Positions 50,335 through 63,705 of a stretch of DNA of 64,000 nucleotides are shown here, piece after piece (position 1 is the stretch's first letter; each line of letters starts with the position of its first letter). The translations under genes and the position numbers were made by a program. Under the pieces are notes generated by a model. It did not search any database and was not told the DNA's origin. It saw only the letters and a list, made by a program, of their open reading frames with translations. The DNA is from Rouxiella sp. S1S-2 (GTDB lineage: Bacteria; Pseudomonadota; Gammaproteobacteria; Enterobacterales; Enterobacteriaceae): contig NZ_WFKL01000001.1 in the NCBI RefSeq assembly GCF_009208105.1, forward strand, positions 1,488,001-1,552,000, read 5' to 3'.

Positions 50335-52329
50335 TTATTTCAGCAGCGCCTGCGCTTTCGCGACCACGTTGTCTACCGTAAAGCCGAACTCTTTGAACAG
50401 CAGCTCCGCCGGCGCCGACTCACCAAAGGTGGTCATGCCCACGATAGCGCCGTTCAGGCCCACGTATTTATACCAGTAGTCGGCAATGCCCGCTTCCACC
50501 GCCACGCGCGCCGAAATCGCTTTCGGCAGGACGGACTCGCGATAGGCTTCATCCTGCTTGTCGAACGCGTCGGTTGACGGCAGCGACACCACGCGTACCC
50601 TGGTCCCCGCCGCGGTCAGCTTGTCGGCCGCTTCCACGGTGATACCCACCTCAGAGCCGGTGGCAATCAGGATAACCTCTGGCGTGCCTTCGCTGTCCTT
50701 CAGAATGTAACCCCCGCGCGCCACGTTCGCCAACTGCTCGGCGGTACGCGGTTGCTGGGTCAGGTTCTGACGGGAGAAAATCAGCGTCGTCGGGCCGTCG
50801 TTGCGCTCAATCGCGTATTTCCACGCCACCGCGGACTCGACCTGGTCGGCCGGGCGCCACAGGCTCATGTTCGGCGTCACGCGCAGGCTGGCCAACTGCT
50901 CCACCGGCTGGTGCGTCGGGCCGTCTTCGCCCAGACCGATAGAGTCGTGGGTGTAAACGAACACGTTGCGGATTTTCATCAGCGCGGCCATGCGCACCGC
51001 GTTACGGGCGTACTCCACGAACATCAGGAAGGTCGCCGAGTACGGCAAGAAGCCGCCGTGCAGCGCGATGCCGTTGGTGATGGCGGTCATGCCGAACTCG
51101 CGCACGCCGTAGTGAATGTAGTTACCCGCCTGGTCGTCGCCGATTGATTTCGAGCCGGACCACATGGTCAGGTTGCTCGGCGCCAGGTCGGCAGAGCCGC
51201 CCAGGAACTCCGGCAGAATTTTGCCGAAGGCTTCCAGCGAGTTCTGCGACGCCTTGCGGCTGGCAATGTTCGCCGGCTTGGCCTGCAACCCTTCGATGAA
51301 TTTCTGTGACTCGGTTTCCCAGTTCTGCGGCAGCTTGCCGTTAACGCGACGGTCAAACTCGGCGGCCAGCTCCGGGTAGGCTTTGGCGTAGGCGGCGAAC
51401 TTGTCGTTCCAGGCCGCTTCTTTGGCCTTACCGGCTTCCTTGGCGTCCCACTGGGCATAAATGTCCTGAGGAATTTCAAACGGCGGATAGTTCCAGCCAA
51501 TCGCTTTACGCGTGGCGGCCACTTCGTCCGCACCCAGCGCGGCGCCGTGCACGTCGTGGGTGCCGGCCTTGTTCGGTGAACCGAAACCGATGATGGTTTT
51601 GCACAGGATGAGCGTCGGCTTGTCGGTCACCTTGTGGGACTCTTCGATAGCCGCTTTAATCGCGTCAGGGTTGTGGCCGTCTACGTGACGAATGACGTGC
51701 CAGTTGTAGGCTTCAAAACGCGCCGCGGTGTCATCGGTGAACCAGCCTTCTACGTGGCCGTCGATGGAGATGCCGTTGTCATCGTAGAACGCGGTCAGTT
51801 TACCGAGCTTCATGGTACCGGCCAGCGAGCACACCTCGTGGGAGATACCTTCCATCATACAGCCGTCGCCCAGGAAGGCGTAGGTGTGGTGGTTGACGAC
51901 GTCGTGGCCTTCGCGGTTGAACTGCGCGGCCAGCGTGCGTTCGGCGATGGCAAAACCGACGGCGTTAGCAATCCCCTGACCCAGCGGGCCGGTGGTGGTT
52001 TCAACGCCTGGGGTGTAGCCGTACTCCGGGTGACCTGGGGTCTTGGAGTGCAGCTGGCGGAAGTTGGCAAGCTCGTTAATCGGCAGGTCGTAGCCGGTGA
52101 GGTGCAGCAGGCTGTAAATCAGCATAGAGCCGTGACCGTTTGAGAGGACGAAGCGGTCGCGGTCGGCCCAGTGCGGGTTGGTCGGGTTGTGGTTCAGGTA
52201 ATCACGCCACAAGACTTCGGCGATGTCGGCCATGCCCATAGGGGCGCCAGGGTGGCCGGAATTCGCTTTCTGCACGGCGTCCATGCTGAGTGCGCGGATA
52301 GCGTTCGCAAGCTCTTTACGAGAGGACAT
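50335..52329 (-). CDS. tktB: Transketolase TktB
   Basis: Thiamine-diphosphate enzyme of the non-oxidative pentose phosphate pathway, 664 residues, interconverting xylulose-5-P, ribose-5-P, erythrose-4-P, fructose-6-P and glyceraldehyde-3-P. Conserved parts: [48 protein letters not shown], ThDP motif [21 protein letters not shown], and the C-terminal [25 protein letters not shown]. Named tktB from its place downstream of talA, as in E. coli; sequence alone does not separate TktA from TktB. 16 bases after talA, with TGGAGT before the ATG. It can consume erythrose-4-P from the neighbouring island. Confidence 0.93.
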
Positions 52330-52345: not shown

Positions 52346-53296
52346 TTACAGTTGAGCGGACAGCATATCTTCCAGCTTCTGCTGGTCGACAGCGAACAAA
52401 CGAATGCCTTCAGACAGCTTCTCAACCGCCATTGGGTCTTGGTTATGCTGCCAGCGGAACTCTTCTTCTGCCAGCGGCGCTGGCTGATGGAATGCTTCTG
52501 TGGAGGGAGTCAGTTTACGTTCAACCGGCTCGTTGCTGTTTTTCAGCTCTTCCAGCAGGTTTGGCGAAATAGTCAGACGATCGCAACCAGCCAGTGCCAA
52601 GATCTGGTCAACTTTACGGAAGCTGGCACCCATGATCACCGTCTGATAACGATGCTCTTTATAGTACTTGTAGATATCTGTCACGGACTTCACACCCGGA
52701 TCTTTCGTCGCATCGTAGGCCGCGTTTGGCTCTTTGGCCTTATACCAGTCGTAGATACGGCCCACGAAAGGTGAAATCAGATAAACACCGGCTTCGGCGC
52801 AGGCACGGGCCTGGGCGAAGGAGAACAGCAGAGTCAGATTACAGTTGATGCCTTCTCTTTCTAACTGTTCAGCGGCTTTGATGCCTTCCCAGGTGGAGGC
52901 CAACTTGATCAAAATACGCGATTTATCAATGCCGTGGTCCGCATACATGCCGATCAGCTTACGCGCTTTTGCCACACACATGCCGCGATCGAAGGACAGA
53001 CGTGCGTCAACTTCGGTTGAAATACGGCCAGGGACACTTTTGAGGATCTCCAGACCGATGTTCACAGCCAGCTTGTCAGAAGCATTGATAATTTGCGTTT
53101 CCTTGCTTCCACCTTGTCTACGGGCGTAATCAAGCGCTTCTTGAATCAGAGGTTTGTACTGTGGAATATCAGCAGCTTTGAGGATCAGTGAAGGATTGGT
53201 GGTCGCATCCTGCGGTTCGAAATGACGAATGGATTCAATATCGCCACTGTCGGCTACCACTGTCGTTAGCTGTTTAAGTGCGTCTAACTGGTTCAT
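52346..53296 (-). CDS. talA: Transaldolase TalA
   Basis: Class I transaldolase, 316 residues, moving a dihydroxyacetone unit between sedoheptulose-7-P or fructose-6-P and aldose phosphates. Schiff-base Lys131 is in [12 protein letters not shown], with [10 protein letters not shown] at 30-39 and [18 protein letters not shown]. Position upstream of tktB favours TalA over TalB. It is separated from the divergent-facing catabolic island by about 210 bases. Together talA-tktB offer an exit for D-erythrose-4-P. Confidence 0.95.
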
Positions 53297-53506: not shown

Positions 53507-53956
53507 TTAAGCGCCTTTCAAACCTTCATAGTAGCCAATTTTTTCAACTTTGCTGGTTGAACCGCCTCCTTCGAAATTAGAGGCCAGCCAGGCCGCGACG
53601 ATCGATTTTGCTAATTCCGGGCCAATGACGCGCGCACCCAGCGTCATCACTTGTGCGTCATTACTTTTGCGGGCGCGTTCGGCTGAATAAGTGTCATGGC
53701 ACTGGGCGGCGCGAATGCCAGCAACTTTGTTCGCCACGATGCTCATTCCAATGCCGGTGCCACACAGCAAAATGCCGCGTTCAAACTTTCCTTCTTTAAT
53801 TGCCGTTGCCACGGTGAAGGCAATATCCGGGTACAGCGGATTATTAGCATCCTGGCTGTAATCGACCACTTCCAACCCCTGTTGCTGAATAAAAGCTTTA
53901 ACGATGTTTTTCAGTTCAATAGCCGCATCATCGGCTCCAATCGCGATAGGTAACAT
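53507..53956 (-). CDS. RpiB-like D-erythrulose-4-phosphate / D-erythrose-4-phosphate isomerase (EryI/DerI type)
   Basis: RpiB/LacAB-family isomerase, 149 residues. Catalytic Cys65 is in LLCGTGIGMSIVANKVAGIRAA. The N-terminal signature that is usually DHA in RpiB (His10) reads ADDAA here, and residues 87-95 are HDTYSAERA, as in tetrose-specific EryI/DerI proteins, not the EPYSA of E. coli RpiB. I therefore infer interconversion of D-erythrulose-4-P and D-erythrose-4-P, the last step of tetrulose catabolism. AGGAAGGA precedes the ATG. It is divergent from the transporter operon across a 523-base control region and faces the same way as talA-tktB, 210 bases upstream of them. Confidence 0.82.
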   Translation of the reverse strand: MLPIAIGADDAAIELKNIVKAFIQQQGLEVVDYSQDANNPLYPDIAFTVATAIKEGKFERGILLCGTGIGMSIVANKVAGIRAAQCHDTYSAERARKSNDAQVMTLGARVIGPELAKSIVAAWLASNFEGGGSTSKVEKIGYYEGLKGA

Positions 53957-54094
53957 AATTTATCCTTCCTAATTAATAGGTTATGAATGTTGAGTGGCGT
54001 CATGGCATTGAACACAGCGGCCATCTTTCTGCTGCGGCTCCCGGCCTTTTTGGGGGGCGCGCAACGCATAAAATCAAGATAGCGCGAAATCAAT

Positions 54095-54121
54095 CATATG
54101 TTCAATGATCGTTCATATGTT
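54095..54121. promoter_or_regulatory. Candidate operator 1 (isomerase side)
   Basis: CATATGTTCAATG (54095-54107) followed by TTCATATGTT (54112-54121). Both strings recur exactly in operator 2, 160-180 bases away. Probable binding site of the SorC-family regulator encoded at the end of the island. Confidence 0.6.
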
Positions 54122-54271
54122 TTGTGATGAATGATCTAAACTGATGCCGTCCGCGTAAATGTATTGAACAAAATGTGATGTAAACTCAGGTGTGATCCGT
54201 TTTAATCGGCTTTTTGAGTCGTGTCACACTTTTAACGTTGGGGTGTAGGCAATTTAAGAGGGAAAGGGTAG

Positions 54272-54304
54272 TGTTCATATGTTCAATGTAGATATTTATG
54301 AACA
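54272..54304. promoter_or_regulatory. Candidate operator 2 (transporter side)
   Basis: The inverted repeat TGTTCATA (54272-54279) / TATGAACA (54297-54304) has a 17-base centre and includes CATATGTTCAATG (54276-54288) and TTCATATGTT (54274-54283), identical to operator 1. It lies 28 bases before the leader ORF. Confidence 0.62.
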
Positions 54305-54331
54305 GCTCAAAACCCGTCAGAGGATGAGACC

Positions 54332-54469
54332 ATGAGACAAGCCTGCAAAAGCCCTACAAGCACTGCCCATTTTGCAGCGTCGGATAAGACATCCAGCGCT
54401 TTTGAACGCTGCACCAGCCAGCACACCAGAAGCTCCTTAGTTAATGCTTTGCCTGCCTGCGGGCAGTAG
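54332..54469 (+). CDS. 45-codon leader ORF upstream of the transporter gene
   Basis: ATG at 54332 has AGAGGA seven bases before it. The ORF encodes a 45-residue polar peptide, Ser/Thr- and Cys-rich (MRQACKSPTSTAH at the start, PACGQ at the end), and its TAG stop (54467-54469) is the first part of TAGGAG, the ribosome binding site of the transporter gene, whose ATG is ten bases farther on. The junction between the transporter and kinase genes has the same TAGGAGTA stop/ribosome-site fusion, suggesting translation is coupled at both. Could be a regulatory leader peptide or a fortuitous frame; no homologue is recognised. Confidence 0.5.
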   Translation: MRQACKSPTSTAHFAASDKTSSAFERCTSQHTRSSLVNALPACGQ

Positions 54470-54479
54470 GAGTAAAAAA

Positions 54480-55847
54480 ATGACAACAATTTCTCAAACA
54501 GTACCTGGGACTGCTGAAAAATCAGCAATTCGTAAAATTTGTTTGCGCCTGGTTCCTTTCGTGGCGCTGATGTTCTTTATTAACTTCCTCGACCGTACCG
54601 CTATCTCTTTCGCTGGCCCCAATGGGATGATTAGCGATTTAGGCATTCAGGTGGCCCAGTTTGGGCTAGCGTCGGGTGTTTTCTTTGTCGGCTACATTTT
54701 GCTGGAAGTCCCGAGCAACCTGGCACTGCATCGCTACGGCGCACGCCGCTGGCTGGCGCGTATCATGGTCTCGTGGGGCATTGTGTCGCTGCTGTTTACT
54801 TGGGTTAGCAGCGTGCAAGGGCTTTATGGTCTGCGTTTGCTGTTAGGCGTGGCCGAAGCAGGTTTCTTCCCTGGCGCCATTTTCTTCCTCAGCGCATGGG
54901 TGCCGGCACGCTATCGCAGCAAGATTCTCGCGCTGTTCTATCTTGCCCAGCCGTTGACCGTAGTATTTGGCGCACCGCTGGCCGCGTGGTTTATTAACCA
55001 GCACGGGCTGTTCGGCCTTGAGGGCTGGCGCGTGATGTTCCTCGGCGTATCGATCCCGGCGATTCTGGTGGGGATTGCTGCCTGGTTCTATTTGGTTGAT
55101 AAACCTAAAGATGCTAAATGGCTGACAACAGAAGAGCGCGTTTGGCTCGAGACTGAACTTGAAAAAGAAGAGTCGAGCAAGAAAACCCCTCACGGCCATC
55201 ACGGGCTGAGAGCGGCATTTGCCAGCGGTCGCGTATGGATGCTGTGCATGATCTATTTCGGTTTCGTCTATGGCCTGTATGCATTGGCGTTCTTCCTGCC
55301 GACCATTATCGGCGGATTCCAGCAGCAGTTTGGCGTCACTTTCAGCGTGCTGCAAAAAGGGCTGATCACCGGTATTCCTTATTTGGTAGCCGCGGTAGTG
55401 ATGTTCTTCTGGTCGCGTGATGCTTCAAAACGTGGTTGCAAAACCTGGCATATCGCACTGCCTGCACTGGTGGGCGGGGTTAGCGTACCGCTGGCGCTGT
55501 ATATGGATTCGCCAGCCGCCACCATTGCCGTCATCACTATTACCGCCTGTTCAATTTTCGCCGCGCTGCCGAATTTCTGGACGCTGCCCACGCAGTTCCT
55601 TTCCGGGGCTTCTGCCGCCGCTGCAGTTGCGCTGATTAACACCCTCGGCAACGTGGCGGGTTTCTCGGCCGGTTATGTCACCGGTGCACTGCACGATGCC
55701 ACCTCGAGTTATACGGTTCCGATGATGGTCGTTGGCGGATTTATGCTGCTTTCGGCTCTGTTGATGGTGCTGCTGCGTGCAACTCAGCGACCGGCCAAGC
55801 CTGTGTCATCAACCCTTAAAGACTCGCATTCCGCTAAAGCTGTCTAG
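54480..55847 (+). CDS. MFS transporter, anion:cation symporter family
   Basis: 455-residue inner-membrane transporter with 12 helices. FINFLDRTAISFAGPNGM in helix 1, the loop RYGARRWLARIMVSWGIVS, and LLGVAEAGFFPGAIFFLSAWVP belong to the ACS family (ExuT, GudP, tartrate and phthalate permeases), which carry sugar acids and other organic anions. That predicts an acidic substrate such as D-apionate for this island, rather than a neutral polyol. ATG 54480 follows TAGGAG by seven bases. Its stop codon overlaps the ribosome binding site of the next gene, so translation is likely coupled. Confidence 0.85.
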   Translation: MTTISQTVPGTAEKSAIRKICLRLVPFVALMFFINFLDRTAISFAGPNGMISDLGIQVAQFGLASGVFFVGYILLEVPSNLALHRYGARRWLARIMVSWGIVSLLFTWVSSVQGLYGLRLLLGVAEAGFFPGAIFFLSAWVPARYRSKILALFYLAQPLTVVFGAPLAAWFINQHGLFGLEGWRVMFLGVSIPAILVGIAAWFYLVDKPKDAKWLTTEERVWLETELEKEESSKKTPHGHHGLRAAFASGRVWMLCMIYFGFVYGLYALAFFLPTIIGGFQQQFGVTFSVLQKGLITGIPYLVAAVVMFFWSRDASKRGCKTWHIALPALVGGVSVPLALYMDSPAATIAVITITACSIFAALPNFWTLPTQFLSGASAAAAVALINTLGNVAGFSAGYVTGALHDATSSYTVPMMVVGGFMLLSALLMVLLRATQRPAKPVSSTLKDSHSAKAV

Positions 55848-55857
55848 GAGTAGTGAA

Positions 55858-57618
55858 ATGACCTATTTATTCAATAAACCCTCGGCGTTTGCCAATGAGC
55901 TGATCGAAGGATTCGTTGCGGCGCATGCCGCTAAAGTTCGGCAGGTGCCGGGTGGTGTGGTGAGAAGTACGCGCAGTCAGCCCGGCAGCGTTGCCGTAGT
56001 GATTGGCGGTGGCTCGGGTCATTATCCTGCCTTTGCCGGGCTGGTTGGGCAGGGGATGGCGCACGGTGCGGCGATGGGGAATCTGTTTGCCTCGCCGTCC
56101 GCCCAGCAGATTTGTTCAGTGGCGCGTGCGGCCAACAACGGCGGCGGCGTGCTGTTGACCTTCGGCAACTATGCCGGTGATGTGCTGCACTTTGGCCTGG
56201 CGCGAGATCGCCTGATTTCAGAAGGCATTCCGTGTGAAACTGTGTTGGTTACCGATGACATCTCCAGCGCCAGCAAGGCCGAGCGTGAAAAAAGACGCGG
56301 CGTAGCCGGTGACCTAGTGGTATTCAAAGCGGCTTCAGTTGCTGCTGAGCAGGGTCTTTCATTAGAAGAGGTTACGCGCATTGCCCGCCTTGCCAACCAG
56401 CGTATTCGCTCGTTTGGCGTCGCCTTCAGCGGCTGTACTTTGCCGGGTGCCGACCATCCTTTATTTAGCGTGCCGCAGGGTAAAATGGCGCTGGGTATGG
56501 GCATTCACGGCGAACCGGGAATTGGTGAGTCAGACATTCCTACCGCTGACGAACTGGCTGAAGTGCTGGTCAAAAGTCTGCTTGATGAATTGCCAGACGA
56601 CATTGCCAGCGCCAAGGGCCAGCGGGTTGGCGTGATCCTTAACGGTCTCGGTTCGGTGAAGTACGAAGAGCTGTTCGTGGTTTATCGCCGCATTGCCCAA
56701 CTGCTGGATGAAGCAGGAATTGTTGCGGTCGATGCGGAAGTTGGCGAATTTGTGACTAGCTTTAATATGGCGGGGGCATCCTTAACGCTGTTCTGGCTGG
56801 ACGACGAGCTAGAAGCGCTGTGGCGTGCACCGGCCGATGCGCCAGCCTTCCGCAAAGGGTCGGTGATTGCTGCCGAGCCGCTTGAGGCGCAAAAGATTGT
56901 TGAAACGGCGGCGGTGAGCGTGCCACCTTCCAGCGAAGCATCGAAGAAAGCAGCACAGTGTTTGGTTGGCGTATTGAATACTTTGGCGCAGACCGTAGTA
57001 ACCCACGCCGACGAGCTGGGGCGTATCGATGCCGTTGCCGGAGACGGTGACCATGGAATCGGCATGGAGCGCGGTGCGCTGGCGGCGGCGGAAAAAGCTG
57101 CCGAAATGCAGCTGCGCGGTGCGGGTGCGGGCACATTATTGCAGCATTCCGCCGATGCCTGGGCCGACCGCGCCGGAGGAACCTCGGGGGCGCTGTGGGG
57201 AATGGCACTTAACGCGCTGGGCACGGTGATTGGCGATGAAAAATATCCCGATGCGCACACTGTCGCCGAAGGCGTAAGCAAGGCGAAAGACGGCATCATG
57301 CACTTTGGTAAAGCCAAGGTCGGCGATAAAACGCTGGTCGACGTGCTGGTTCCGTTTAGCGATACCTTAAGCGCCTGCGTTCAGCGCGGCGACAGTTTTG
57401 GTGCTGCGTGGCAGCATGCGGCGCAGGAGGCCGACGTTCAGGCGAAAGCGACCGCCCATCTGCGCCCTAAAGTGGGCCGTGCCAGACCGTTGGCAGAAAA
57501 GAGTTTAGGGACTCCGGATGCCGGTGCCGTGTCGCTGGCGCTGATTGTTAATGCACTGCTGCCGCTGTTTGCTGATAAAACCGGCGACGGTGTAAAACCA
57601 CGTGAGGAAAAAGTGTGA
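55858..57618 (+). CDS. Fused DhaK-DhaL kinase, L-erythrulose kinase type (LerK-like)
   Basis: ATP-dependent dihydroxyacetone-kinase-family enzyme, 586 residues. DhaK domain (about 1-330): GGGSGH at 50-55 and His217 in GMGIHGEPGIGE, which binds the ketose carbonyl covalently in the family. After a linker rich in proline and serine, the DhaL domain (about 370-580) has the Mg-nucleotide motif AGDGDHGIGMERG and RAGGTSGALWG. Single-chain ATP-dependent forms include Citrobacter DhaK and the erythrulose kinases DerK and LerK. In this cluster I infer phosphorylation of L-erythrulose to L-erythrulose-1-P. TAGGAG lies seven bases before ATG 55858; the frame is open upstream into the transporter. Confidence 0.85.
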   Translation: MTYLFNKPSAFANELIEGFVAAHAAKVRQVPGGVVRSTRSQPGSVAVVIGGGSGHYPAFAGLVGQGMAHGAAMGNLFASPSAQQICSVARAANNGGGVLLTFGNYAGDVLHFGLARDRLISEGIPCETVLVTDDISSASKAEREKRRGVAGDLVVFKAASVAAEQGLSLEEVTRIARLANQRIRSFGVAFSGCTLPGADHPLFSVPQGKMALGMGIHGEPGIGESDIPTADELAEVLVKSLLDELPDDIASAKGQRVGVILNGLGSVKYEELFVVYRRIAQLLDEAGIVAVDAEVGEFVTSFNMAGASLTLFWLDDELEALWRAPADAPAFRKGSVIAAEPLEAQKIVETAAVSVPPSSEASKKAAQCLVGVLNTLAQTVVTHADELGRIDAVAGDGDHGIGMERGALAAAEKAAEMQLRGAGAGTLLQHSADAWADRAGGTSGALWGMALNALGTVIGDEKYPDAHTVAEGVSKAKDGIMHFGKAKVGDKTLVDVLVPFSDTLSACVQRGDSFGAAWQHAAQEADVQAKATAHLRPKVGRARPLAEKSLGTPDAGAVSLALIVNALLPLFADKTGDGVKPREEKV

Positions 57619-58406
57619 TGAAACCGCAACTGACGCTGGGGGTGAGCCTCAAAATGTATTTCGGCTATCAGCAGACGCTCGAATGGTCACGTCAGATAGC
57701 CGAAATTGTCAGCCACCATCCGGCGACGCGCGACGGGCAGGTTGAGCTGTTCGTGTTTCCTTCTCTACCCGCTATTGCCGGTACGCTCGAAGCTTTTCGC
57801 GACACGCCGGTGAGGGTGGGGGCGCAAAACATGTTTTGGGAAGACACCGGTGCCTATACCGGTGAAGTGAGTGGGGCAATGTTGCATGAGATGGGCTGTG
57901 GCTATGTCGAAATTGGGCACGCCGAGCGCCGCCGCTATTTTGCCGAGACCGATCGACAAATTGCCGATAAAACCACCGCCGCGTTGCGCAACCAACTGAT
58001 ACCGGTTATCTGCATGGGTGAGGCCGAACGCTGCTCTGCCGCCGAGGCGATTGAGCAGGCGGTTGAACAGGCCCATCAGGCGCTGGGACCGGCTGAAAAA
58101 CTCGGGCTGAACGGTGATGCCATTCTGGCCTATGAACCGCAGTGGGCGATCGGTGCTAAAGAACCGGCTTCGGCCGAGTTTATCGGTGAGGTGTGTCAAG
58201 GCTTGGCCGAACGATTGACCCGCGATGCCAGCGGCGCGCGTCGGGTTATTTATGGCGGCAGTGCTGGACCGGGCCTACTTTCACAGCTTGGGCACCGCAG
58301 CGGCGGACTGTTCCTCGGGCGGTTTTCACATCAGCCTGCGGCCTACAAAGCCATCCTCGATGAAGCTTTCACGCTGTTAAACGCCTCGACTAAAGGGAAC
58401 GGATAA
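57618..58406 (+). CDS. Triosephosphate-isomerase-like L-erythrulose-1-phosphate isomerase (LerI/EryH type)
   Basis: TIM-fold protein, 262 residues. The catalytic set is intact: Lys12 (VSLKMYFG in place of the usual NWKMN), His101 (EIGHAERRRYF) and Glu173 (LAYEPQWAIGA), with the phosphate loop YGGSAGPG. The altered active-site entry SLKMYF and context point to the LerI/EryH group, which interconverts L-erythrulose-1-P and D-erythrulose-4-P, rather than housekeeping TpiA. ATG 57618 overlaps the kinase stop by one base (TGATG), with GAGGAA eight bases upstream; a GTG three bases earlier is an alternative. It overlaps the next gene in TAATG. Confidence 0.85.
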   Translation: MKPQLTLGVSLKMYFGYQQTLEWSRQIAEIVSHHPATRDGQVELFVFPSLPAIAGTLEAFRDTPVRVGAQNMFWEDTGAYTGEVSGAMLHEMGCGYVEIGHAERRRYFAETDRQIADKTTAALRNQLIPVICMGEAERCSAAEAIEQAVEQAHQALGPAEKLGLNGDAILAYEPQWAIGAKEPASAEFIGEVCQGLAERLTRDASGARRVIYGGSAGPGLLSQLGHRSGGLFLGRFSHQPAAYKAILDEAFTLLNASTKGNG

Positions 58407-59206
58407 TGGCGATTGGACTGAGTACTTACGCCTATTTTTGGCGACATTCAGACCGTGTTCCCGTCCCGATGGGGCTAGATGCGATGCTCGAACAAACTGC
58501 CGAGCTGGGCGGTCAGGTTTTTCAAATTTGCGATTATCCCAAAATTGAAAAACTGTCGGCAGAAAGCCTGGAAAAACTGAGACAGCGTGCCGAATCGCTT
58601 GGCGTGGTGCTAGAGCTGGGAACGCGCGGTCTGAAAGCGGATCACCTCGGGCTGTATTTAAATCTGGCTAAATCGCTGGACGCCAAAATTCTGCGCTCAA
58701 TGTTTAACAGCCCGGATTTGCGTCCGACGATTGCTCAGGCGCAGCAGCAGCTGTCGCAGATTTTGCCGGATTTCGAGCGCAGCGAAGTGGCGCTGTGTAT
58801 CGAAACCTATGAACAGGTTCCTACCGCCAGCAATCTTGAGGTGGTGAAACACTTCAACTCACCGTGGCTGGGCATTTGTCTCGACCCAGCCAACTGCGTG
58901 GCGGCACTGGAAGCACCGAAAGAGGTGATTACCCTGACCACGCCCTATGTGCTGAATCTGCACGTTAAAGACTTTGCCTTTTCCCGTCGTGACGGCTGGG
59001 TGGGCTTTACCTTTGCCGGCTGTCCGCTGGGTGAAGGATTGCTGGATTACGACGCGATGATTGCTGAGGTGAACCCCCAGTCGCGCGGCATTAACCAGAT
59101 TATTGAGCATTGGTTGCCGTGGCAGGAAGATGCCGACGCAACCTGTGCGATGGAAGACGCGTGGACGCGTCACAACCTCGATTACCTGCTGTCGCGAAAT
59201 GCATAG
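58406..59206 (+). CDS. Xylose-isomerase-fold protein: 3-oxo-isoapionate decarboxylase (OiaC) or tetrulose-phosphate racemase (EryC) candidate
   Basis: 266-residue AP-endonuclease-2/xylose isomerase-like TIM barrel. Likely metal-site residues are in LCIETYEQVPT (Glu), WLGICLDPANCVAAL (Asp), VLNLHVKDFAF (His) and INQIIEHWLPWQED (Glu). Two functions are known for this fold in such clusters: EryC, racemising tetrulose-4-P in erythritol catabolism, and OiaC, decarboxylating 3-oxo-isoapionate to L-erythrulose. The next gene resembles ApnO, the producer of 3-oxo-isoapionate, and eryA/eryB are absent, so I favour OiaC. One-base overlap with the preceding gene. Confidence 0.72.
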   Translation: MAIGLSTYAYFWRHSDRVPVPMGLDAMLEQTAELGGQVFQICDYPKIEKLSAESLEKLRQRAESLGVVLELGTRGLKADHLGLYLNLAKSLDAKILRSMFNSPDLRPTIAQAQQQLSQILPDFERSEVALCIETYEQVPTASNLEVVKHFNSPWLGICLDPANCVAALEAPKEVITLTTPYVLNLHVKDFAFSRRDGWVGFTFAGCPLGEGLLDYDAMIAEVNPQSRGINQIIEHWLPWQEDADATCAMEDAWTRHNLDYLLSRNA

Positions 59207-59285
59207 CGCATCGGCAGGCAGGTTATCGATTACCCCTTCTTTTAAGTACAACTTTGAATTTTAAATATTAAGTGAGGAACACATC

Positions 59286-60143
59286 ATGACGACAACATTG
59301 AAAACAATTACTGTACTGGGTGCCGGTGGTAAAATGGGCATGCGTATTTCTGCCAATTTCCAGAATAGCGATTATCAGGTGTTCTACTGCGAGAATTCTC
59401 CGCGCGCGCAGGAGCAGGTTGCCGCACAGGGTCGTGAAATATCGGATGCCGACACTGTTGTGCCGCACAGCGACGTGGTTATTCTTGCCGTGCCTGATAT
59501 TGCACTCGGTGCCGTTTCTACCGCCATCGTGCCGAAAATGAAAGCGGGTGCTGTTCTGTTGACGCTGGACCCTGCGGCGGCCTACGCTAACCTGATTTCT
59601 CAGCGTGATGACATTAAGTATGCGGTGGCGCATCCTTGTCATCCGTCAGTGTTTCTTGAGCGTTATACCAAAGAAGAGCACGCCGATGCCTTTGGCGGCA
59701 TTGCGGCTATTCAGCACGTTGCGGCTTCCTATGAGCAGGGCAGCGATGCCGATCGCACTGAATTAGCTAAAGTGGTCAGCGTAATGTACGGTCCGGTTGA
59801 GCAGGTGCATTGGGTGAGCGTTAAACAGCTGGCCTATCTTGAGCCGACGCTGGTCGAAACCGTGGCCTGCATGGTCGGTTCTTTCATGAAAGAGGCACTC
59901 GACGAAACCGTTAAGTCCTGCGGCGTACCGGAAGAAGCGGCTAAAGCCATGCTCTACGGCCATATTCAAATTGCGCTGGCCGTCGCATTCCGCAGCACGA
60001 ATCCTTTCTCTGATGCCTGTATGATTGCGATGGAGTATGGTCGTGAAAAAATTATTAAAGAGGACTGGAAGCAGATCTTCGAGGAAAAAGAGCTGGATAT
60101 TGTGATTGCCCGCATGTTGAAAATTGATGCCATAAAACGCTAA
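59286..60143 (+). CDS. NAD(P)-binding oxidoreductase resembling D-apionate oxidoisomerase (ApnO)
   Basis: 285-residue protein with an N-terminal Rossmann fold (ITVLGAGGKMGMR, GAGGKMG at 12-18; VVILAVPDIALGAV near 70) and an all-helical 6-phosphogluconate-dehydrogenase-like C-terminal domain with VKQLAYLEPTLVETVACMVGSFMKEALDE. Proteins of this type include ApnO, which oxidises D-apionate with migration of the hydroxymethyl group to give 3-oxo-isoapionate. Assignment rests on architecture and on neighbours that would process the product; it is not certain from sequence alone. GAGGA lies nine bases before the ATG. 79 bases separate it from the preceding gene, with a T/A-rich stretch but no terminator, so it probably belongs to the same operon. 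Confidence 0.72.
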   Translation: MTTTLKTITVLGAGGKMGMRISANFQNSDYQVFYCENSPRAQEQVAAQGREISDADTVVPHSDVVILAVPDIALGAVSTAIVPKMKAGAVLLTLDPAAAYANLISQRDDIKYAVAHPCHPSVFLERYTKEEHADAFGGIAAIQHVAASYEQGSDADRTELAKVVSVMYGPVEQVHWVSVKQLAYLEPTLVETVACMVGSFMKEALDETVKSCGVPEEAAKAMLYGHIQIALAVAFRSTNPFSDACMIAMEYGREKIIKEDWKQIFEEKELDIVIARMLKIDAIKR

Positions 60144-60160
60144 TTTAGCACGCAGCAGCA

Positions 60161-60191
60161 GGTGGCGCAGGCCCACGAGGTTTGCGCCACC
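60161..60191 (+). terminator. Stem-loop at the end of the island operon
   Basis: GGTGGCGCA (60161-60169) and TGCGCCACC (60183-60191) form a perfect 9-bp stem, followed by TTCACTTTCCC. It separates the catabolic genes from the regulator gene; termination may be partial. Confidence 0.65.
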
Positions 60192-60303
60192 TTCACTTTC
60201 CCGCCCCGTGATCTTTTTCCCGTCTCGTCGATGCCCTGCTGTAGTCAAGTTTCCCTGATTAGCGTATAAAAAGGCAGAATTTGCCAGGAGAATTGAGCCC
60301 CGG

Positions 60304-61266
60304 ATGGAAAAGCAAACTGTCATTCAAGATAACGAACTGCTGACTGAGATTGCCGTCGCTTACTATCAGGACGAAATTACTCAGGAAGAAATCGCAAAAA
60401 AATTTGGTATTTCGCGGATTAAAGTCGGGCGCTTGCTCAAGCGAGCCAAGGAAGAGGGCATTGTTGAGATAAACGTGCGCTACCATCCGGTATTCAGCAC
60501 TCGTCTCGAACAGCAGATGATGGAACGCTTTGCGATAAAACGTGCACTGATTGCCCTCGACCATCAGGACGAAGAGGAGCAGCGTCGCCAAGTCGCAGCA
60601 CTGGTTTCCAACTATCTGGCCTCTACGCTAAAAGACAATACCGTGGTCACCGTCGGGCAGGGCCGCAATGTGGCGGCCATCGCCGACCATCCGGGCAGTA
60701 TGCCGGAACGCCAGTGCAAATTTATTTGTGGCATCGGCGGCACCCACCGCCCCGGTGATTCGATTAATGCTGATCACATCAGCCGTCGTTTGGCCAAGAA
60801 GTTTGGCGGCATCAGCGAAACGCTTTACGCCCCAGCCTACGTTGAGGAGAAGTCCCAGCGTGAGGCGTTTATGCGCAATGGCACCATTAACGAAACGCTC
60901 GACCGCGCGCGCAAGGCAGACATCGCACTGGTGGGCATCGGTGACATGAACGAAAACAGCTACATGGTCAAGCTGGGCTGGTTCACTCCGCATGAAATTA
61001 TCGACGCCAACCTCAATCAAGGTGTGATCGGCGACGTGGCAGGTTATGACTTTTTCAACGCGCAAGGTCAGCACGTTGATACAGTGATGAACGAACGGGT
61101 GATTGGCCTGAGCATTGACGAGCTGCGACAAATACCCTGCGTGATAGCCATCGCCGCTGAGAACACCAAGGCGCTGGCCATTCTCGGGGCGCTGCGCACC
61201 GGCGCGATTGATATTATCGCCACCACGGCGCTGAATATCCGCACCATTTTGAACATGTCGCAATAG
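60304..61266 (+). CDS. SorC-family transcriptional regulator of the island (EryD-like)
   Basis: 320-residue SorC/DeoR-type regulator. The helix-turn-helix is at about 22-55 (YQDEITQEEIAKKFGISRIKVGRLLKRAKEEGIV), followed by a sugar-binding domain with VTVGQGRNVAAIAD (phosphate-binding-like loop) and RTGAIDIIATTALNIRTIL at the end. EryD of Brucella is in this family and responds to erythritol. The effector here is probably a pathway intermediate such as a tetrulose phosphate (inference). It has its own promoter region: AAGGCAG and TATAAA near 60267-60273, and CCAGGAG before the start. The repeated motifs at 54095-54121 and 54272-54304 are the best candidate operators. Confidence 0.88.
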   Translation: MEKQTVIQDNELLTEIAVAYYQDEITQEEIAKKFGISRIKVGRLLKRAKEEGIVEINVRYHPVFSTRLEQQMMERFAIKRALIALDHQDEEEQRRQVAALVSNYLASTLKDNTVVTVGQGRNVAAIADHPGSMPERQCKFICGIGGTHRPGDSINADHISRRLAKKFGGISETLYAPAYVEEKSQREAFMRNGTINETLDRARKADIALVGIGDMNENSYMVKLGWFTPHEIIDANLNQGVIGDVAGYDFFNAQGQHVDTVMNERVIGLSIDELRQIPCVIAIAAENTKALAILGALRTGAIDIIATTALNIRTILNMSQ

Positions 61267-61299: not shown

Positions 61300-61329
61300 T
61301 TGCCCGAGTCCTTCGGGCAAGCTGTTTTT
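61300..61329 (+). terminator. Terminator of the regulator gene
   Basis: TTGCCCGA and TCGGGCAA form an 8-bp stem with a five-base loop, followed by GCTGTTTTTC. Confidence 0.85.
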
Positions 61330-61425: not shown

Positions 61426-63705
61426 ATGGACGATCAATTGAAGCAGAGTGCGCTCGATTTTCATGAGTTTCCCGTTCCCGGTAAAATTCAGGTCTCCCCC
61501 ACCAAGCCGCTGGCAACTCAACGTGACCTCGCGCTGGCCTATTCACCCGGCGTGGCGGCACCCTGTCTTGAAATCGAAAAAGACCCCCTTGCTGCCTACA
61601 AATACACCGCAAAAGGCAATTTGGTGGGGGTGATTTCTAACGGTACCGCGGTGTTGGGACTGGGTAACATTGGCGCACTGGCCGGCAAGCCGGTAATGGA
61701 AGGCAAGGGCGTGCTCTTCAAAAAGTTTGCCGGCATCGACGTGTTTGATATCGAAATTGATCAGAATGACCCCGACAAGCTGATTGAGGCGATTGCCTCG
61801 CTGGAGCCGACGTTCGGCGGTATTAATCTGGAGGATATCAAGGCGCCTGAGTGTTTTTACATCGAGAAAAAGCTGCGCGAGCGCATGAAAATTCCGGTAT
61901 TCCACGACGATCAGCACGGTACGGCGATTATCTGCACCGCAGCGGTGCTTAACGGCCTGCGTATCGTCGAGAAAAATATTGCCGAGGTTCGCCTGGTGGT
62001 GTCGGGCGCCGGTGCCTCGGCGATTGCCTGCCTGAATCTGCTGGTGGCGCTTGGCCTTAAACGCGAAAATATCACCGCCTGCGACTCACGTGGTGTGATT
62101 TATAAAGGCCGTGAAGAGAACATGGCCGAGACCAAAGCCGCCTACGCGATTGACGACAACGGACAGCGCAGCCTGGGCGACGCCATTCCCGGGGCGGATA
62201 TCTTTCTTGGTTGCTCAGGTCCCGGCGTGCTCACCCAGCCGATGGTGAAAGCGATGGGCCGCAGCCCACTGATTCTGGCTCTGGCCAATCCCGAGCCGGA
62301 AATTTTGCCACCGCTGGCAAAAGAGGTGCGTCCTGACGCTATTATTTGCACCGGCCGCTCTGATTATCCTAATCAGGTCAACAACGTACTGTGTTTCCCG
62401 TTCATCTTTCGCGGTGCGCTCGACGTAGGTGCTACTACCATTAATGAAGAGATGAAGCTGGCCTGCGTACACGCCATTGCCGACCTGGCGCTGGCCGAGC
62501 AAAACGACGTGGTGGCGTCGGCCTATGGTGAAGAAGAGCTGTCTTTTGGCCCGGAGTATCTGATACCTAAACCTTTTGATCCGCGCCTGATTGTGAACAT
62601 TGCGCCAGCGGTAGCTAAGGCGGCGATGGACTCCGGCGTGGCGACTCGGCCGATTACCGACTTTGACGCCTACAGAGAAAAGCTCTCCGAGTTTGTCTAT
62701 AAAACCAACCTGTTTATGAAGCCGATTTTTTCGCAGGCTAAAAAAGAGGCCAAAAAAGTGGTGCTGGCAGAAGGAGAAGAGGCGAGGGTGCTGCATGCCA
62801 CGCAGGAGATTATTTCACTCGGACTGGCTAAGCCAATTCTGGTGGGCAGGCCCGGCGTAATTGATATGCGCATTAAAAAGTTGGGACTGCAAATTGAAGC
62901 TGGCCGAGATTTTGACGTGGTAAACAACGAATCCGATCCGCGTTTTAATGAATACTGGAGCGAGTATTACCAATTGATGAAACGACGCGGGGTGTCACAG
63001 GAGCAGGCGCGACGAGCTGTTATCGGTAATCCCACGCTGATCGCCGCCATTATGCTGCTGCGCGGAGAGGCCGATGCGATGATTTGTGGCACCATTGGTA
63101 CCTATCACGAGCATTACGAGGTGGTAGAAAAAGTGTTTGGTTTTCGCGAGGGCGTGCGCGTGGCGGGAGCAATGAATGCGCTGCTCTTGCCGAGCGGTAA
63201 TACATTCATCACCGATACTTATGTGAATGAAGACCCCACCGCCGAGCAATTGGCCGAGATAACCCTGCTGGCGGCTGAAACCGTGCGGCGATTTGGTATT
63301 GAGCCTAAGGTCGCGCTGCTGTCGCACTCAAGTTTTGGCACCTCAGACGGGCAAACGGCGCGCAAGATGCGTAAAACGCTGGAGCAGGTTAACAAGCTCG
63401 CGCCAGAGCTGGAAATTGACGGAGAAATGCATGGCGACGCGGCGCTGGTTGAAAGCATCCGCCATGACCTGATGCCAGACAGTCCGCTAAAAGGCTCGGC
63501 TAACATTCTGGTTATGCCCAATATGGAGTCGGCACGAATCAGCTATAACCTGCTGCGCGTCACCAGTTCTGAGGGGGTCACTGTGGGGCCGGTACTGATG
63601 GGCGTCGCGAAGCCGGTGCATATTTTAACGCCCATCGCCTCGGTAAGACGAATTGTTAATATGGTTGCACTGGCCGTGGTTGAGGCGCAGGCCGAGCCGC
63701 TGTAA
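61426..63705 (+). CDS. maeB: NADP-dependent malic enzyme MaeB
   Basis: 759-residue enzyme making pyruvate, CO2 and NADPH from malate. The N-terminal malic-enzyme part (about 1-425) contains [16 protein letters not shown], the catalytic-Lys/metal region [21 protein letters not shown] and the NADP fold [21 protein letters not shown]. The C-terminal part (about 430-759) is a phosphotransacetylase-like regulatory domain. AAAAGGAACC precedes the ATG. In E. coli maeB follows talA directly; here the island at 53.5-61.3 kb separates them. Confidence 0.97.

Follow-up and report, generated by a model that had tools for sequence, protein, structure and literature searches.

The 64,000-nucleotide window of Rouxiella sp. 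S1S-2 analyzed here (contig NZ_WFKL01000001.1, positions 1,488,001 to 1,552,000, from a 5.36-Mb genome in two contigs) carries at positions 53507..61266 a seven-gene island that is a well-supported member of the known pathway of D-apionate degradation. Gene content, chromosomal site, residue signatures, genomic context and a repeated promoter motif make it quite probable that the island is a composite, in which an apionate head (a major facilitator superfamily (MFS) carrier, LerK, OiaC and ApnO) would be set on an erythrose-4-phosphate module (a SorC regulator, LerI and DerI, beside tal-tkt), the whole being under predicted SorC control and the module probably shared with an erythritol locus of the same genome. 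The initial annotation had read the island as a route from D-apionate to D-erythrose 4-phosphate, and this is supported here: by sequence each enzyme falls in the family in which it had been placed, and relatives of the island show an ApsD-like context.

All seven open reading frames are present where that annotation had them and carry the expected Pfam domains. On the minus strand, opposite to the six other island genes, stands an RpiB/LacAB-type isomerase read as DerI/EryI (53507..53956; PF02502; D9-D10-A11, H87-D88-T89 and S98). Across a 523-bp divergent promoter region with candidate SorC operators (53957..54479) there follow on the plus strand the MFS carrier, a protein of anion:cation symporter character and a likely D-apionate importer (54480..55847; PF07690), a DhaK-DhaL (Dak1-Dak2) fusion kinase read as LerK (55855..57618; PF02733 and PF02734), a triosephosphate isomerase (TIM)-like protein read from its PDB ranking as LerI/EryH (57615..58406), a xylose-isomerase-fold protein read as OiaC (58406..59206; PF01261), an oxidoreductase read as ApnO, the D-apionate oxidoisomerase (59286..60143; PF16896 (PGDH_C) and KARI_N), and the SorC-family regulator (60304..61266; PF04198, Sugar-bind). 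Starts and stops had been described as mostly overlapping, which does not hold, for only two of the six junctions overlap (kinase/TIM by 4 bp, TIM/OiaC by 1 bp), the remaining spacings being 523 bp (rpiB/MFS, divergent), 7 bp (MFS/kinase), 79 bp (OiaC/ApnO) and 160 bp (ApnO/SorC). A terminator-like hairpin found by pattern match, with a 9-pair stem and a T-rich tail, closes the plus-strand operon (61300..61320).

In the proposed pathway the MFS carrier would import D-apionate, a sugar acid of plant origin, and ApnO would convert it to 3-oxo-isoapionate by an oxidation with carbon migration, which would amount to ketol-acid reductoisomerase chemistry reversed; OiaC would then yield L-erythrulose and CO2, LerK would phosphorylate L-erythrulose to L-erythrulose 1-phosphate, LerI would turn the latter into D-erythrulose 4-phosphate, and DerI would form D-erythrose 4-phosphate, which the neighboring transaldolase and transketolase would take up. 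The 11-bp sites repeated in the divergent promoter would be bound by SorC, with D-erythrulose 4-phosphate or erythrose 4-phosphate as its signal. The combination of five steps had also been presented as new, a claim we do not retain, as a xylose-isomerase-family branch of D-apionate degradation has reportedly been published already. The site of the island, its candidate operator and the link to erythritol had gone unnoticed in that annotation. The D-apionate branch in MetaCyc uses a decarboxylase of the xylose isomerase family, and Carter et al., in 2018 in Nat Chem Biol 14:696, reportedly described D-apionate degradation via 3-oxo-isoapionate and L-erythrulose with ApnO, OiaC, LerK, LerI and DerI. 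With this branch the island shares the five enzyme families, the order of the chemistry and the lack of a RuBisCO-like protein, whereas it differs in its MFS carrier, its SorC regulator, its tal-maeB site and the lack of a close ApsD in the genome.

In the upper half of the pathway, both sequence and predicted fold place ApnO among PF16896/KARI-like NAD-binding oxidoisomerases. The protein is encoded by the single PF16896 gene of the genome; its closest PDB entry by sequence is 5t57 (Cupriavidus necator, E 5.6e-58), followed by 3c24 and then by ketol-acid reductoisomerases (KARIs), and the predicted fold returns the same ranking (TM-score 0.71 to 5t57). The xylose-isomerase-fold gene read as OiaC lies in the same cluster as ApnO, with E133, D160, H186 and E234 kept in 71/71 aligned rows, and the carrier finds its best NCBIfam matches in HpaX (TIGR02332) and a D-galactonate transporter (TIGR00893), both under the cut-off.

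The link to apiose comes from relatives of the island. Immediately after ApnO, four loci of Pseudomonas (L005, L006, L007 and L014, where L-numbers denote fetched loci) carry an ApsD-like Gfo/Idh gene, which in Halotalea (L024) lies upstream of MFS-OiaC-ApnO. The L007 protein matches PDB 5uhw, an Agrobacterium radiobacter oxidoreductase that we take to be D-apiose dehydrogenase (ApsD), at E 7.5e-112, with the next entry at 2e-22; AlphaFold modeled the ApsD-like protein poorly (mean pLDDT 52). According to PMC6302742, enzymes of the apiose pathway from A. radiobacter K84 were assayed by Carter et al. All five loci with the ApsD-like gene also encode an importer with 40-52% identity, in its substrate-binding protein, permease and ATPase, to that of the E. 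coli SE15 D-apiose cluster (ECSF_RS02670-02715, with limits taken from an excerpt of PMC13001218), and no other locus compared has all three parts in this range. The ApsD-like gene is the stronger of the two links because the importer family also serves erythritol, and both concern 5/61 relatives, not the Rouxiella genome itself. There, as the initial annotation had it for the locus, an apiose dehydrogenase gene is missing, the best ApsD match in the whole genome reaching 31% over residues 4-218; the genome has no match to apiosidase (PF13204), and an AptA search of it returned transketolase-length frames at 30-31% only. With no close ApsD, no apiosidase and AptA represented only by such frames, D-apionate itself rather than apiose is the likely substrate taken in. 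The predicted independence from RuBisCO-like proteins also stands, the genome having no match to PF00016 (RuBisCO large subunit/RuBisCO-like protein). Two further candidates for an apiose link were rejected: L084 of genome G027 as a connection of OiaC-ApnO to the apiose transketolase pathway, where the split transketolase is only 34%/30% identical to SE15 AptA/AptB, and a DUF2291 importer in the Rouxiella genome itself, which its neighbors place in the erythritol locus.

The lower half is marked by conserved signatures. The LerK candidate, a fused Dak1-Dak2 kinase, has both the IHGEPG and the GDGDHG motif, present in 56/56 aligned rows and presumably providing the substrate His and ADP/Mg binding. 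The best PDB matches of the TIM-like protein are 3s6d, a putative TIM, and 11ef, an L-erythrulose-1-phosphate isomerase, both ahead of triosephosphate isomerases; at the TIM places it keeps Lys, His and Glu, which we take to be catalytic. Its identity to Rhizobium leguminosarum EryH (37%), however, differs little from that to the genome's own TpiA (35%). The RpiB-like protein has the RpiB fold with the presumably catalytic Cys-Thr kept, and lacks the second His of a true RpiB, which we take to be the ring-opening residue: S98 stands where 1nn4, 3he8 and 3ph3 have His. C65, T67 and S98 are found in 60/60 cluster RpiB rows (the window and its duplicate included), and among the 55 distinct ones the signature D[DS]A, HD[TS], SN[DN] occurs in 55/55 and HN[DN] in none. 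By comparison, 1nn4, 3he8 and 3ph3, presumably E. coli and Clostridium RpiB enzymes, have DH near the N-terminus and R-x-H-N-D, whereas the window has DD and R-K-S-N-D plus an added H-D-T; 2vvr, presumably an engineered mutant of E. coli RpiB, has Asn at the second His place, and 3qd5 has Ser, the window's pattern. Rhizobium leguminosarum EryI (GDSAG, HDTYS, SNNA) carries the same Ser in place of His. As erythrulose and erythrose 4-phosphates would be unable to close a furanose ring, a ring-opening His would be unneeded, and its replacement by Ser fits an open-chain tetrose phosphate substrate. Separately, 3qd5 (annotated "putative ribose-5-phosphate isomerase", with HDT and S-N-D) and 3s6d ("putative triosephosphate isomerase"), which we take to be Coccidioides proteins, may both be tetrose-phosphate isomerases.

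A genome-collection scan with the window's OiaC, covering one genome per species for 84,980 species and reaching close relatives only, returned 61 loci, in which genes were counted by tblastn. An ApnO relative lies in the same locus in 59/61, and all six carrier and enzyme genes are found together in 49/61, which exceeds chance. In Rouxiella silvae 213 (L002) OiaC is 98% identical to the window's, and the ten genes tkt-tal-rpiB, MFS-DhaKL-TIM-OiaC-ApnO-SorC and maeB are 97-100% identical to those of the window. Enterobacterales share the layout with rpiB divergent and SorC last, and in Pseudomonas and Streptomyces, where the set is complete, six co-directional genes run MFS-DhaKL-RpiB-TIM-OiaC-ApnO. 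MFS-OiaC-ApnO without kinase and isomerases nearby recurs in L024 and L027 of the 61-locus set and in L084, L088 and L090 of a family sample (L081-L090), which ties the carrier to the acid and not to L-erythrulose. Among 149 genomes of the same GTDB family a close OiaC (E <1e-90) occurs in 11 and any match at E 0.001 in 23, so the trait is patchy; the scan and family-sample sets share at least two loci (L015/L083 and L021/L086), and their counts are not summed. Full-length ApnO relatives listed are at least 58% identical except in L046 and L059, on Propionivibrio/Accumulibacter contigs, where an OiaC relative of 53-55% is paired with a distant ApnO of 40%; upstream in L059 lie D-threonate-kinase-like (far below the model cut-off) and PdxA-like genes.

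On the minus strand, transaldolase (tal, 52346..53296), a user of erythrose 4-phosphate, lies 210 bp downstream of the DerI gene and on the same strand, and transketolase (tkt, 50335..52329, identified by synteny with E. coli) follows 16 bp downstream of tal, while maeB (61426..63705, plus strand) bounds the insertion site on the right. In E. coli (record L080) maeB and tal-tkt are divergent across a 288-bp gap without an island, and the Rouxiella island occupies this same gap; erythrose 4-phosphate would thus arise next to the genes of two enzymes that use it. Across the 18 loci of enterobacterial layout in L002-L062, tal or tkt stands beside rpiB in 13 of the 16 with enough flank and maeB beyond SorC in 6/18, and in the family sample the corresponding counts are 7/7 and 6/7; in some enterobacterial-layout loci tal alone or tkt alone is found there. 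A second transaldolase is encoded elsewhere in the Rouxiella genome.

Modules related to the lower half occur in E. coli and on plasmids with other genes at their head. In E. coli PD7 (L111), the one among 5426 E. coli genomes with the ery locus, this locus is followed by SorC, TIM, RpiB and tal, which are 76, 52, 70 and 68% identical to the window's; with R. leguminosarum EryH the PD7 TIM shares only 34% identity, and with EryI the PD7 RpiB only 49%, and no MFS, DhaKL, OiaC or ApnO match lies within the 27.9 kb read. A Klebsiella pneumoniae plasmid (L114) carries the same set of eryABC and importer with SorC, TIM, RpiB and tal. On a K. variicola plasmid (L115) the arrangement is SorC-TIM-DhaKL, divergent from RpiB-tal-tkt, together with MFS, a 2-hydroxyacid dehydrogenase and two xylose-isomerase-like proteins, and on a Salmonella diarizonae plasmid (L116) it is SorC-DhaL-DhaK-SDR-MFS-ADH (SDR, short-chain dehydrogenase/reductase; ADH, alcohol dehydrogenase), divergent from RpiB-tal and without TIM. 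SorC, RpiB and tal are common to all four modules and to the island, whereas the heads differ (eryABC and importer in L111 and L114). The four RpiBs are 67-70% and the transaldolases 65-68% identical to the window's, and these RpiBs keep Ser and HD, the latter followed in PD7 and two of the plasmids by V or I, not T. The plasmid search with RpiB gave 17/714 records at 60-80% identity; 3 of 12 listed plasmid rows were examined besides that of Pantoea At-9b (L117), which carries the apionate island itself. From this pattern we lean, if only slightly, toward a broader view for Enterobacterales, in which a mobile, substrate-neutral erythrose-4-phosphate module (SorC, DerI and tal, with LerI, LerK and tkt as needed), governed by one regulator sensing a tetrulose or tetrose phosphate, would accept interchangeable heads for apionate, erythritol or other tetrose sources, the Rouxiella copy serving two pathways. 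As to single loci, the K. variicola tetrose module spans L115 7035-19058; the gene set at L116 4671-12463 (DhaK, DhaL, SDR, ADH, MFS, RpiB and tal, no TIM) suits a route for D-erythrulose or threitol; and downstream of the Pantoea At-9b island a frame at L117 13712-15835 joins an ABC permease to a strictosidine-synthase/SMP-30-like domain and is a candidate lactonase or sensor.

The promoter region offers a candidate for the site of SorC action. The 11-bp motif TGAACATATGA has two exact copies in the whole genome, both on the minus strand of the rpiB-MFS gap (54094..54104 and 54275..54285), and a reversed control pattern occurs once. Counting that of the window, 21/23 distinct divergent gaps have an exact copy (raw 22/24, before L021 and L086 were merged as a single gap seen from two strands); outside these gaps, within the fetched loci, one occurs in L018 only. 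A copy with one mismatch stands in the TIM-RpiB gap of PD7, and the Pantoea At-9b plasmid has a perfect one; no copy with up to one mismatch occurs in the plasmid loci of K. pneumoniae and Salmonella. We infer that TGAACATATGA is the natural candidate for a SorC operator. With the regulators of the four other tetrose modules (PD7 and three plasmids) the island SorC shares 76-78% identity, and since these modules have SorC, RpiB and tal in common while one lacks TIM, D-erythrulose 4-phosphate or erythrose 4-phosphate would be the simplest signal and is most likely the SorC effector.

The same genome contains, 2.7 Mb away on the contig, a rhizobial-type erythritol locus of EryABCD and importer (L101; G000:C1:4264000-4283000), which was reached through a DUF2291 search. 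Its EryA-D are 61-79% identical to those of R. leguminosarum plasmid pRL9b4 (L109), its importer 57% (DUF2291) and 75-81% (ATPase, permease and substrate-binding protein), and a DeoR-like gene 33%; the Ery names follow the gene order given in the accessible part of PMC3599248, the record itself having generic product names. The R. leguminosarum locus ends with a triosephosphate isomerase (TpiB, EryH) and an RpiB (EryI). These two are missing from L101, leaving the full rhizobial-type set incomplete, and in the ery loci of four genomes (L101, L106, L107 and L108) no EryH or EryI match was better than E 1.7. The Rouxiella genome has two TIM genes, one of them the housekeeping TpiA outside the island, and a single PF02502 gene, which is the island's, so that the island supplies the only EryH/EryI candidates. 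Among the 149 family genomes EryC occurs in four, all of them among the 11 with a close OiaC; the chance of this is 1.7e-5 if relatedness is ignored, and two of the four belong to one genus. An excerpt of PMC6761702 reports that a Rouxiella strain with a 5.37-Mb genome, not necessarily the strain studied here, oxidized erythritol in Biolog plates. The erythritol pathway of L101 probably draws on the island module as well.

Several observations weigh against this composite reading. At the chromosomal site, both tal and tkt are missing next to rpiB in three loci with flank present (L018, L020 and L026), and the rpiB-tal interval contains a weak hairpin of terminator type (53502-53488; two were found there, and shuffles gave 1.8). 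As to sharing, the ery locus of G027 lacks EryH and EryI, and neither LerI nor DerI turned up in the two parts of that genome searched, the ery region and 56 kb surrounding the apionate genes; E. fergusonii is described in the accessible part of PMC3599248 as having EryABCD and EryG, but neither EryR nor TpiB, so that another solution may exist; and L101 contains no copy of TGAACATATGA. Such points would suit an operon dedicated to apionate alone, with the erythritol locus independent of LerI and DerI, for example through aldolase cleavage of erythrulose 1-phosphate to dihydroxyacetone phosphate and formaldehyde. We regard this as a tenable but less favored explanation: not only do the PD7 and K. 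pneumoniae plasmid ery loci adjoin TIM, RpiB, tal and SorC of the island type, but the Rouxiella genome also offers one RpiB and one TIM besides TpiA.

In the upper half, the ApnO model is of fair quality (mean pLDDT 74, 53/285 residues below 50, root-mean-square deviation 8.8 to 5t57), no NCBIfam match is named OiaC or ApnO, and OiaC was placed without a characterized reference sequence, its one PDB match being 8z1i at E 4.8e-4. The importers of the SE15 apiose cluster and of erythritol loci are 42-47% alike, which weakens the importer as evidence for apiose, and the name D-apionate oxidoisomerase, given by JGI or NCBI to ApnO relatives 86-87% identical in 2/120 rows among the matches listed (P0054 and P0055), may be propagated annotation. 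Coupled with the lack of an ApsD-like gene above 31% in the genome, this would allow ApnO and OiaC to act on some other sugar acid, branched or of the 3-oxo kind, the half from L-erythrulose to erythrose 4-phosphate being right. We consider such a substrate unlikely in view of the ApsD-like gene and apiose-type importer beside MFS-OiaC-ApnO in the four Pseudomonas loci and Halotalea and of the KARI-like relatives, which suit an oxidoisomerase; moreover, a C5 acid minus CO2 would give the very C4 ketose that the next genes are predicted to handle. It is very improbable that the island makes no erythrose 4-phosphate, its RpiB-like protein being a regular ribose-5-phosphate isomerase B and its TIM-like protein an extra triosephosphate isomerase: the former does pass TIGR01120 (ribose-5-phosphate isomerase B; 150.5 vs. 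a cut-off of 138.65) and fails NF051858, a model named for rhizobial DerI (173.5 bits vs. 240), for which reason we claim only a function like DerI and not model membership, and the latter keeps Lys, His and Glu, but three of five PDB RpiBs (3he8, 3ph3 and 1nn4) have His where all 55 distinct cluster rows and R. leguminosarum EryI have Ser, the TIM-like protein is nearest to 3s6d and 11ef, and both genes accompany a dihydroxyacetone-type kinase in 49/61 loci and follow eryABC in PD7.

The composite reading, an apionate head on an erythrose-4-phosphate module, can be set beside two other known systems. Erythritol catabolism by EryABC, EryH and EryI is described for Brucella and Rhizobium in the accessible parts of PMC5992420 and PMC3599248; it has in common with the island the LerI = EryH and DerI = EryI steps, a SorC family regulator and erythrose 4-phosphate as the product, whereas the island is entered by a sugar acid through a ketose kinase, and relative to R. 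leguminosarum its TIM is 37% identical to EryH, its RpiB 45% to EryI and its SorC 28% to EryD. LerK, LerI and DerI also work in E. coli in the erythrulose monophosphate (EuMP) cycle, according to an excerpt of PMC10733421, with LerI and DerI likewise turning L-erythrulose 1-phosphate into erythrose 4-phosphate; that cycle differs from the island in having a tetritol dehydrogenase in front and no apionate steps. No paper on a shared apionate-erythritol module was found in the literature on erythrulose phosphates, apiose catabolism, 3-oxo-isoapionate and erythritol loci, most subscription journals lying outside the search. New here are the filling of the divergent tal-maeB gap by the island, the 11-bp motif that occurs twice and only in its promoter, the erythritol locus lacking EryH and EryI, whose only candidates lie in the island, and the joining of a related SorC-DerI-transaldolase core to erythritol or other tetrose genes in E. 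coli and on plasmids, and, we think, the modular build, with one regulator type across tetrose sources and likely isomerase sharing with erythritol breakdown.

These findings assign an apionate pathway to an exact place in the chromosome, beside genes that use its product, and provide a SorC regulator with candidates for both its operator and its effector. The Ser-for-His signature, in turn, suggests a residue-level rule by which tetrose-phosphate isomerases may be told from true ribose-5-phosphate isomerase B among the genes carrying the latter name. If sharing proves true, it would account for the working of an enterobacterial erythritol locus that lacks EryH and EryI, a gap that is in print for E. 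fergusonii in the accessible part of PMC3599248.

A further gene recurs in both settings. Five of the six enterobacterial erythritol loci read (L101 3882-4307, L111 15930-16373 and L114 7567-8010, and also L106 and L107; not L108) have a lumazine-synthase-like gene between eryC and eryD, with PF00885 found in the two tested, and such a gene stands beside SorC in two Pantoea apionate islands (L117 10982-11419 and L023 7594-8028). Lumazine synthase binds a deoxytetrulose 4-phosphate, and a role of this gene in the handling of tetrulose phosphates is possible.

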